Shown one piece after another: positions 15,738-17,438 of a stretch of DNA of 32,319 bases (the first letter of the stretch is position 1; each line of letters starts with the position of its first letter). The stretch lies in the NCBI GenBank assembly GCA_001801055.1, contig MGWP01000035.1, positions 27,918 to 60,236 of the forward strand. The letters are read 5' to 3'. The DNA is from Gallionellales bacterium GWA2_55_18. Lineage in GTDB: Bacteria; Pseudomonadota; Gammaproteobacteria; Burkholderiales; Gallionellaceae. Position numbers and translations under genes: made by a program. The notes beneath the pieces are model-generated. The model searched no databases, had not been told where the DNA came from, and worked only from the letters and a program-made list of their open reading frames with translations.

Positions 15738-16484
15738 TTAATCGCCATCGCCACTCACCACGCATCCGAGGATGCTGCGCACCCGCTCCATTGCCACACT
15801 CGCAACAGCATTGACCCGCTCCACACTCACGCCTTGCTGGTTATCGCCGCGCCCCGCCGCATGATTCACCACCACGGCGATGATGGCGTATTTCATATCC
15901 AGCTCCATCGCCAGCGCGGTTTCCGGCATTCCGGTCATACCGACCATATCCGCGCCGTCGCGTTCGTAGCGGTTGACCTCGGCGATGCTGTCGAGGCGCG
16001 GCCCTTGCGTTGCGGCATACACGCCTCCATCCACACAAGGCTGCTGCACGGCTTTCGCGCTGCGCAAAATATGCTCGCGCAATTTCGGGCAATAGGGCAA
16101 GGTGAAATTGGCGTTGGTATAGACCGCGTCGCGCGTATCGTAAAAGGTCGCATCGCGCCCGTGGGTGTAGTCGATGATCTGGTCCGGCACGACAATGGTG
16201 CCAGGCGTCAAATCGGCGCGAATGCCCCCAACCGTTGCAATCGAAACCACTTTGCTCACGCCCTGTTCGCGCAATGCCCACAGGTTGGCCCGGTAGTTCA
16301 CCAGGTGCGGCGGAATGATGTGCCCATAACCGTGGCGCGCCAGGAAAATCACCTCATGCTGATCCAGCGTGCCAAACAGGAATGCGCCGGACGGTTCGCC
16401 ATAAGGCGTGCGCATTACTTGCCGATGGGTGATCTCCAAATTCGCCAGTTCGGTCAGGCCATGGCCGCCAATGATTGCCAACAT
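15738..16484 (-). CDS. S-methyl-5'-thioinosine / thioadenosine phosphorylase
   Basis: The 248-aa protein belongs to the MTAP/PNP family. It starts MLAIIGGHGLTELANLEITH and has FLARHGYGHIIPPHLVNYRA, VVSIATVGGIRADLTPGTIV and MVGMTGMPETALAMEL. These enzymes phosphorolyse methylthio-purine nucleosides from polyamine synthesis into methylthioribose-1-phosphate and the free base. The short form and TGMPE sequence suggest the methylthioinosine type described in Pseudomonas, which releases hypoxanthine. That fits its place after hpt, which salvages hypoxanthine. The Shine-Dalgarno (GGAGG) lies inside a MITE-like element inserted just upstream. The exact substrate is inferred. Confidence 0.88.
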   Translation of the reverse strand: MLAIIGGHGLTELANLEITHRQVMRTPYGEPSGAFLFGTLDQHEVIFLARHGYGHIIPPHLVNYRANLWALREQGVSKVVSIATVGGIRADLTPGTIVVPDQIIDYTHGRDATFYDTRDAVYTNANFTLPYCPKLREHILRSAKAVQQPCVDGGVYAATQGPRLDSIAEVNRYERDGADMVGMTGMPETALAMELDMKYAIIAVVVNHAAGRGDNQQGVSVERVNAVASVAMERVRSILGCVVSGDGD

Positions 16485-16729
16485 TAGAAAACCTCCAAAA
16501 ATTTACTGCGCGGTTCGATAGCGGCGTTGCACGGTGCTCGCTCGTCGCCTACCCAATTGGTATGTCTCTGTCGCTGCGCGCCGTGCGCCTTGCTCTCGAA
16601 GCGGCGGCTGCGACACGTTACTGGCGAAGCCAGCCGATTGCGGGAGCAGCCGCGAGTTGCCTTTCCCGCGCCTGATGCTTCGCAACTCCGTGTCAAGGCA
16701 ACATCGCTACAATTTTTTGAGGTTTTCAT
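16484..16729 (-). CDS. 81-codon ORF carried by the MITE-like element
   Basis: The frame begins at the ATG formed where the element joins the hpt stop (TAATG) and ends at a TAA that overlaps the phosphorylase ATG (TAATG again). It would be translated by coupling to hpt through the AAGGAG at the hpt end. The peptide (MKTSKNCSDVALTRSCEASG and onward, rich in R, S, C and A) looks like translated repeat DNA, not a folded protein. Its likely value is to keep ribosomes moving through the insert. No function is claimed. Confidence 0.35.
   Translation of the reverse strand: MKTSKNCSDVALTRSCEASGAGKATRGCSRNRLASPVTCRSRRFESKAHGAQRQRHTNWVGDERAPCNAAIEPRSKFLEVF
16487..16727. mobile_element. 241-bp MITE-like element between hpt and the phosphorylase gene
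   Basis: Terminal inverted repeats GAAAACCTCCAAAAATT (16487-16503) and its near complement (16711-16727) match at 16 of 17 positions. The 4-bp duplication ATTA flanks the element (16483-16486 and 16728-16731). A second inner pair, TAGCGGCGTTGC and TAGCGATGTTGC in reverse, extends the symmetry. Removing the insert and one ATTA restores AAGGAGAAATAATG, an hpt stop overlapping the phosphorylase start. No transposase is encoded. Confidence 0.75.
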
Positions 16730-17280
16730 TATTTCTCCTTTACTGCATAAATGGCGGGCAAATTACGCCACGCCCCTTCGATGTCCATGCCGTAGCCGAA
16801 CACAAAACGGTTCGGCAACTCCACCCCGACAAAATCAGCATGGATCGGCTTGGGCTTGTCATGCCGCTTGTCGGCAAATACCGCACTGTAAAATTTGCTT
16901 GCTCCGAGTTTCATCACGAGCTGGTGCAATGCCGCCATAGTATGCCCCTCATCGAGAACATCATCCAGCACCAGCACGACGCGGTTGCGGACATTCTCGT
17001 GCGGCTCGACTTTCCAGTGCATCTGCCCGCCCTGCCGCGCATCGCCATAGCGCGACACATGCACATAATCAAAATCCAGCGGAAAATCGAGCAACGGCAA
17101 TAATTGCCCGGTAAATACCACCGCGCCGCCCATTACCGACAGCACCAGCGGATGCGTGTCTGCCAAGGCGGCATTGATCTGCTGCGCGACCTTGTGCAGG
17201 GATGCCTGCACCTGCTCCGCCGAATACAGCAATTCGGCCTGTTGCAGGATATCGCGGGAGCGCTGGATGGATGCAGCCAT
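16729..17280 (-). CDS. hpt: Hypoxanthine-guanine phosphoribosyltransferase
   Basis: The 183-aa purine salvage enzyme attaches phosphoribosyl to hypoxanthine or guanine. The PRPP-binding motif VVLVLDDVLDEGHTMAAL is clear, as are VLSVMGGAVVFTGQLLPLLD and the C-terminal FVGVELPNRFVFGYGMDIEG. The ATG at 17280 was chosen because TAGGA precedes it; the frame extends 28 codons upstream through repeat DNA. Before insertion of the MITE-like element, its stop would have overlapped the next start. It pairs naturally with the downstream phosphorylase, which can supply hypoxanthine. Confidence 0.93.
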   Translation of the reverse strand: MAASIQRSRDILQQAELLYSAEQVQASLHKVAQQINAALADTHPLVLSVMGGAVVFTGQLLPLLDFPLDFDYVHVSRYGDARQGGQMHWKVEPHENVRNRVVLVLDDVLDEGHTMAALHQLVMKLGASKFYSAVFADKRHDKPKPIHADFVGVELPNRFVFGYGMDIEGAWRNLPAIYAVKEK

Positions 17281-17331
17281 GATTTTTCCTAAGCCGGGCG
17301 AGCCGGAACAAAATGTAGGAAGCCGTCTTCT

Positions 17332-17415
17332 CGTAGGTTGGGCAAAGCGCAGCGTGCCCAACAAACAGAGGTATCATTATCGATGTTGGGCACGCTGCGC
17401 TTTGCCCAACCTACG
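17332..17415. repeat. 31-bp perfect inverted repeat between galU and hpt
   Basis: The arms 17332-17362 and 17385-17415 are exact reverse complements (starting CGTAGGTTGGGCAAAGCGCA), with a 22-bp spacer. It lies between the hpt start and the galU stop. As RNA it would fold into a very stable hairpin and could act as the galU terminator, although no T-run follows. Confidence 0.85.
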
Positions 17416-17438
17416 CACTGAACCGCAATACTCATACC

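Follow-up and report, generated by a model that had tools for sequence, protein, structure and literature searches.

We analysed a stretch of 32,319 nucleotides from the genome of Gallionellales bacterium GWA2_55_18, referred to as a whole as the window. On its minus strand, an hpt-like phosphoribosyltransferase gene (16729-17280, PF00156) stands upstream of a gene for S-methyl-5'-thioinosine phosphorylase (15738-16484, PF01048, with NF006599 above cut-off), and 241 bp separate the stop of the first from the start of the second. Repeat searches resolved these 241 bp (16487-16727, minus strand) into a composite insertion, consisting of a 142-bp MITE-like element and a nested 99-nt unit. It is bordered by an ATTA target-site duplication, read from the sequence at 16483-16486 on the phosphorylase side and at 16728-16731 on the hpt side. 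Inverted-repeat comparison delimited terminal repeats of 17 bp that are 94% complementary: the gene-distal arm occupies 16711-16727, and the gene-proximal arm, which bears a Shine-Dalgarno (SD) motif, occupies 16487-16503 (both minus strand; the arms covary, see below). The element ends read ..AACCTC..CGTAGCGAG and CGCAGTAG..GAGGT. A first-pass annotation had proposed an insertion of 241 bp with an ATTA duplication, and this insertion is real: a second copy lies at the same junction in another genome of the genus (G013).

The ORF list contains an 81-codon mini-ORF that spans the insertion (16484-16729, minus strand) with a TAATG overlap at each end, its ATG overlapping the hpt stop and its TAA overlapping the phosphorylase ATG. 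On the same strand, GGAGG (16492-16496) stands 7 nt ahead of the phosphorylase ATG, and AAGGAG (16735-16740) precedes the duplicated upstream ATG. All of this had been described in the first-pass annotation and is borne out by the sequence, as is the proposed original state: without the element and one ATTA, the junction reads AAGGAGAAATAATG, a TAATG overlap with AAGGAG in front. Purine-rich motifs similar to AAGGAG precede the ATG at element-free hpt junctions too. The mini-ORF gave no match in Pfam, and a scan of the element for promoters and terminators yielded nothing above chance. A known RNA family was considered for the element and rejected, as an Rfam search of the element was without match. 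Elsewhere in the window, a long inverted repeat (GTAGGTTGGGCAAAGCGCAGCGTGCCCAAC and its complement) lies upstream of hpt at 17325-17420; the only two Rfam hits of the window, weak matches to miRNA families that we attribute to chance, fall on this unrelated repeat.

That the 241 bp form a single element, as first annotated, had to be given up, since the 142-bp form stands at the same junction in relatives. We searched the own genome (1.69 Mb, 71.5% complete) at the DNA level and obtained 13 matches, namely the element itself, 11 copies of the inner part and one of the outer part. With the 241-bp sequence as query, copies, mostly partial, were found in 28 of the 61 genomes searched, own genome included. 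G013 carries a full-length 241-bp copy at the same hpt junction (96-97% identical), G027, G025 and G076 carry the 142-bp form alone, the inner part being absent, and G026 carries the inner part plus one further insertion. The composite form was also found at further loci, with nine distinct left flanks, three of which are hpt junctions of different genomes. Because relatives carry the 142-bp form alone at this junction, the insertion is, on comparison of the aligned copies, a 142-bp palindromic element that received an independently repeated 99-nt unit (33 codons) with the frame kept. The inner unit occurs, among the matches listed, in at least 80 public contigs, mostly of Gallionella, Sideroxydans, Ferrigenium, Gallionellales and unclassified Nitrosomonadales. 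A third repeat (AGCCATTCGACTAAG- and CAGCGACTTGG-like stretches) was seen within some copies of both elements (L135, L008, L010, L078, L115, L149); nesting thus reaches up to three deep.

We then compared the hpt junction among relatives. A protein search of 41 genus genomes matched the phosphorylase in 40, and 30 junctions were read. Five of these contain the element; G076 and G073 were added by the family survey described below. The empty site had been expected to be an uninterrupted TAATG overlap, which holds for only two of the 25 element-free junctions (G036 and G009); in 12 of the 25, stop and start lie at most 8 bases apart, and 11 have longer or different spacers. The two element-free genomes with the best-scoring phosphorylases (G008 and G017) read TAACTATG, and two about as close (G016 and G018) have longer spacers. 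GGAGG was absent from all 24 element-free junctions with a script-located start, which indicates that the phosphorylase-side SD came with the element and bears out the proposal that the inverted repeat contributes a new ribosome site. Derivation of the SD from the host site was rejected on the same count and because the arms of the ptsI copies are unlike the native junction. Predicted pairing with the 16S rRNA, calculated with what we take to be its tail sequence, amounted to -9.3 to -10.0 kcal/mol at the five filled junctions versus -4.5 to -8.8 kcal/mol at 13 element-free short junctions. Between the own genome and G013 the element is 96.7% identical and the adjoining phosphorylase gene 77.3%, while G008, G017 and G018, with closer phosphorylase genes (83.9-87.5% identical), lack the element. 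Since the element is far more alike than the adjoining gene and closer relatives are without it, the pattern fits repeated insertion at this junction, or transfer between lineages.

Using the 142-bp form as query, we found the family in 41 of 61 genus genomes. We read 118 loci, mostly the highest-scoring, of which 95 distinct copies passed the filters for length, flanks and duplicates; as candidates were ranked by similarity to the hpt copy and at most 14 were scored per genome, the counts describe this set and are not genome-wide frequencies. In 50 of the 95 copies, one end has the ATG of an ORF of at least 120 codons at an offset of -1 to +3 nt (-1 in a single copy), versus 275 of 8025 random 142-bp windows from the same loci (3.4%). 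When both ends were scored (190 ends), the ATG fell at +2 in 30 cases, at 0 in 10 and at +1 in 8, against a background of 1.1 per offset between 10 and 80. There was no ATG excess where the element end lies 4 to 20 nt upstream. Start-site location applies to 22 of the 34 copies whose arms fully match the query and to 28 of the 61 whose arms do not, and on account of the latter the excess does not stem only from choosing hpt-like arms. Exclusion of nested copies and copies with truncated ends left 43 start-site copies at 26 genes.

The genes downstream of start-site copies are diverse. NCBIfam assigned 18 of 19 start-site proteins (L208 had no assignment), several of them cut by the locus end and below the curated cut-off: nuoL, ptsI, hprK, sucD, D-amino-acid transaminase, PduO-type adenosyltransferase, glmS, purE, dapF, lolD, ruvA, pyrC, ccmC, a hydrogenase-4 subunit, hisG, rlmH, nucleoside bisphosphate phosphatase and feoB. 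The best profile begins at residues 1-7 in all assigned proteins except those of ccmC and feoB (NuoL, PtsI, HprK, SucD, GlmS, DapF, PurE, LolD, RuvA, PyrC and RlmH are among them), which makes the predicted start codons credible. A co-directional ORF ends at the far boundary (-30 to +12 nt) in 41 of the 43 copies and at 24 of the 26 genes; start-site copies therefore mark operon junctions. At ptsH-ptsI, for instance, where 25 of 30 loci were readable by pattern, the genes overlap as ATGA or GTGA in 16 of the 25, and elements with differing arms occupy the junction in G012, G078 and G064, and also in G007, G061 and G080. Contrary to what the first-pass annotation had anticipated, orientation is mixed (30 versus 20). 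An exception to the paired arms described below was seen in three genomes, where the ends are partly unpaired in copies located at the start, or slightly inside, of a gene that we presume from its N-terminus to be kdsB-like (L203, L205, L224).

The family is also present outside the genus. In two genomes from other families of the order (G056 and G037), 2 of 20 hits lie at 0 to +3 nt of a start, both with arms of the SD type; another two are found at +6 and +8, and most of the 20 are not at starts. A third such genome (G059) gave no element hit at that cut-off. SD-bearing arms and start codons hence go together, an association to which targeting and survival could each give rise. In G056 we also saw copies with the same core and CAGGC..GTTG / CAAC..GCCTG arms, which by eye sit at TTAG/CTAA-like sites and not at start codons (L406-L408, L412-L416).

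We next looked at the features that make up the hpt junction in the other start-site copies. A second ATG at the far end is present in 28 of the 43 copies (18 of 26 genes; chance 17.8% per window), and the frame from it is open through the element in 23 of 43. The mini-ORF stop overlaps the next start in 19 of the 43 non-nested copies (11 genes), as ATGA in 15 and as TAATG or TGATG in 4. The suspected preference for TAATG junctions was thus right in that copies concentrate at stop/start junctions and wrong in the motif, which is mostly ATGA. Of 42 start-site copies, 26 are open in frame 0; among 37 copies elsewhere, 9 are open when read forward and 25 when read in reverse. We considered whether the open frame demonstrates selection for coupling and rejected this, copies elsewhere being about as open. 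Contrary to what had been supposed, the frame is not special to junctions, and openness, being a property of the palindromic family, permits selection for coupling and does not prove it. Flanks share a 4-5-mer in 22 of 43 start-site copies, 21 times containing ATG in gene orientation, and in 8 of 41 other non-nested copies, never with ATG (e.g. TTCA, AGAAT). The scan permits shifts and reports shared 4-mers for 11.7% of windows placed at random, and the presence of ATG is partly set by start-site selection. Of 50 gene-proximal ends, 31 contain an SD-like 5-mer, as do 19 of 43 gene-distal ends and 19 of 82 ends of copies elsewhere. Counted by gene, the proximal end has it in 15 of 26 versus 15 of 70 ends elsewhere (Fisher p=0.001); the SD is not significantly better kept at proximal than at distal ends (15 versus 11 of 26 genes; discordant 8 versus 4). 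Some start-site copies are without the left ATG or without an SD.

The terminal arms vary much yet pair. In an alignment of 41 copies, which pools start-site copies with others, 88.6% of cells pair, inner helix included, versus 30-53% with one side slid. Both sides have changed in 20 of 24 pairs, and likewise in 25 of the 39 pairs of a consensus fold computed independently. Pairs switch from T-A to C-G with no wobble state in between: at columns 16-129, for instance, UA occurs 21 times, CG 17 times and GU never. At the hpt junction, the arms are AACC/GGTT in most copies and AGCC/GGCT in G026; G025 has the pair of G026 plus one further mismatch. As the terminal arms pair in the predicted RNA hairpin of the element (fold z-score -2.1), GGAGG lies in the stem opposite the other arm, and translation of the mini-ORF would open this stem.

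The nested unit follows a different plan. At the hpt junction (all parts minus strand), its palindromic core GACACGG...ACGTGTC spans 16612-16694, with an 18-nt centre (16646-16663) complementary to the unit's two flanks, the left arm at 16695-16703 and the right arm at 16603-16611. In general, the halves of the unit are conserved, and the 18-19-nt centre between them is complementary with one of its own halves to the left flank and with the other to the right flank. From 153 anchors, 35 of them without a canonical left half, we obtained 95 distinct units in 21 centre classes. At least 8 of the 9 positions compared between centre and flank agree on 77 left and 63 right sides, versus 400 left and 575 right among 32341 permuted pairs with unlike centres. 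The score is 6 on 24 right sides and 4 on two left sides; the commonest class has a one-base bulge in its example, for which the score is 6. By raw count, 47 of the 95 units lie within ORFs open on both sides. Units (L007, L058, L091, L094 and others) often lie in frame in conserved genes, and tandem arrangements with a period of 99 or 102 nt were seen as well. Units were also found at SD-ATG sites (GGAGGTG..ATGA and alike; L004, L042, L111, L122, L123), where the short frame can end on the next start codon. Three units with CGCGCG-type right arms (L047, L048, L056) come from a MAG labelled Chitinophaga pinensis, possibly through a label or binning error.

Orthologues without the unit were read at three genes by pattern, which covered 28 of 30 Atm1 loci (not L284 and L292), 4 of 16 HisF loci and 16 of the 22 MurG loci displayed; the query genomes for HisF and MurG (G081 and G072) belong themselves to the searched set. 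The Atm1-like ABC gene has the in-frame unit in 7 genomes (full-length matches, DNA of 6 read) beside 22 insertion-free sequences, MurG in 3 genomes beside 13, and HisF in one genome beside 3. At the Atm1 site, the bases adjoining the unit are native and mirrored in the unit centre. The MurG arms are GGAC/GTCC in G072 and G062 and GGGC/GCCC in G005. That the arms are wholly host-derived was rejected, since in both MurG and Atm1 each arm proves on comparison to have come in part with the unit.

How might such an insertion leave the phosphorylase gene translated? We consider it probable that a 142-bp non-autonomous Gallionellaceae element inserted at the phosphorylase start, and that the junction it forms, an SD plus a mini-ORF, leaves the gene translated and allows the family to be tolerated. 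Insertion at the start codon, with duplication of about 4 bp including part of that codon, has left one ATG preceded by the native SD-like motif and the other by the element's SD. The upstream copy opens a frame through the element, which the 99-nt unit entered without breaking it. A ribosome from the upstream gene could run on through the mini-ORF and stop on the next ATG. The phosphorylase, we infer, is still translated, with ribosomes either reinitiating once they have terminated at the TAATG of the mini-ORF or binding at the element SD, which mini-ORF translation is expected to expose from the predicted hairpin. We ascribe tolerance in housekeeping operons to ends that are SD-like and a palindrome that is often stop-free, and not to evolution of coupling copy by copy. 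In this broader form, which includes ATGA and TGATG junctions besides TAATG, the idea of the first-pass annotation holds, and the interpretation overall is partly supported.

Pure survivorship, with insertion at many places and survival of those copies that have an SD end just before an ATG or lie outside genes, would dispense with start-codon targeting. We rate it a serious contender, somewhat below an even chance: shared 4-5-mers elsewhere are without ATG (8 of 41 copies, at a 4-mer chance of 11.7%), the order harbours the subfamily at TTAG/CTAA-like sites (by eye), and SD-type arms co-occur with start-site location. However, a filter on SD spacing would not need the exactness of the +2 offset (30 ends) or the far-end ATG (28 of 43), and it is at odds with the missing excess 4 to 20 nt upstream of the ATG. 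A reading in which the element's SD alone drives translation, the mini-ORF being irrelevant, is rather less likely than not. Here the stop/start overlaps follow from geometry, for 142 bp plus 4 bp is 2 mod 3, so that the TGA of ATGA falls in frame; the open frame as a family property, the 15 of 19 overlaps of ATGA type and the start-site copies without the left ATG all agree with it, but the predicted hairpin has the SD base-paired. That same pairing with the other terminal arm would suit a translational attenuator recruited for regulation, its SD locked until the upstream gene and the mini-ORF are translated. We think this unlikely, even with both sides changed in 20 of 24 arm pairs: the covarying alignment pools start-site copies with others, the fold z-score is only -2.1, and the presence and absence of the element at one junction among congeners is unlike a conserved regulator.

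The complementarity of the arms and of the nested centre calls for an explanation of its own. Probably it arose once the elements were in place, as template switching corrected imperfect inverted repeats against each other (quasipalindrome correction), a known mechanism (PMC8604942, PMC7202029). Copies at one site can differ in a paired manner (hpt and MurG arms), which points in this direction, as do T-A to C-G pair switches without GU intermediates. Against it, mismatches stand uncorrected in some orthologous copies (Atm1-like gene, G008 and G081), and at hpt different subfamilies may have inserted separately, rather than a single copy having changed. For the nested unit, one could instead imagine that its replaceable 18-19-nt centre matches the insertion site because insertion is guided by or templated on the target, the unit being re-addressed at each move; we regard this as very improbable, and template-switch correction is probably to be favoured over it.

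If the favoured reading of the outer element is right, it provides a concrete way for mobile DNA to spread in dense operons: by landing on a start codon and rebuilding the translation junction, with its SD and stop/start overlap, on the other side. Start-codon landing together with an own ribosome-binding site may explain how the family spread among housekeeping genes without breaking them. Tolerance of mobile DNA between co-translated genes, where insertions should be polar, would become testable, and predicted short ORFs and start sites at such junctions may turn out to be element-derived. The paired arms lend themselves, as a natural data set, to estimating how fast inverted repeats are corrected in bacteria.

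Several known systems resemble parts of this one. Termination-reinitiation at ATGA/TGATG overlaps is treated as an established process in the sections consulted of PMC6728339, and the mini-ORF and its downstream gene form such an overlap; the difference is that a mobile element built it and that coupling is predicted here from sequence. REP repeats tagged with GTAG/CGTC are palindromic and sometimes intragenic, with inserts encoding 20-30 residues, according to an excerpt of PMC3733652. We considered a REP (20-40 bp stem-loop with a terminal GTAG/CGTC tag) and rejected it, the outer unit having an extrapolated length of 136-145 bp and GTAG only internally; the Gallionellaceae elements, at 142 bp and about 95-99 nt, have other ends. 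Rickettsia palindromic elements are palindromes of about 100-150 bp that lie in frame in conserved protein genes, as outlined in parts of PMC10969869 and PMC2229807. The nested unit resembles them as an in-frame 33-codon insert (Atm1-like ABC protein, MurG, HisF) absent from orthologues. It occurs in other organisms, the outer element lies between genes at start codons, and the likeness, as with intragenic REPs, is one of behaviour. Searches of open-licence papers yielded no description of a bacterial start-codon MITE family or of the elements found here in Gallionellaceae. Bacterial MITEs (ERIC, Correia, RUP, MITEAba12) are characterized in the portions consulted of PMC2229807, PMC10969869 and PMC6382973 by about 100-250 bp, terminal inverted repeats, no transposase gene, a short target duplication and many dispersed copies, some with open frames. 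The present element is like them in its 142 or 241 bp, its 17-bp repeats, its mini-ORF without Pfam match, its dispersed copies with empty hpt and ptsI junctions, and its target duplication, exact here as ATTA and weaker at other copies (22 of 43 start-site, 8 of 41 other). Unlike described MITEs, it combines exact start-codon location in operons with an SD in the terminal repeat and variable, covarying arms.
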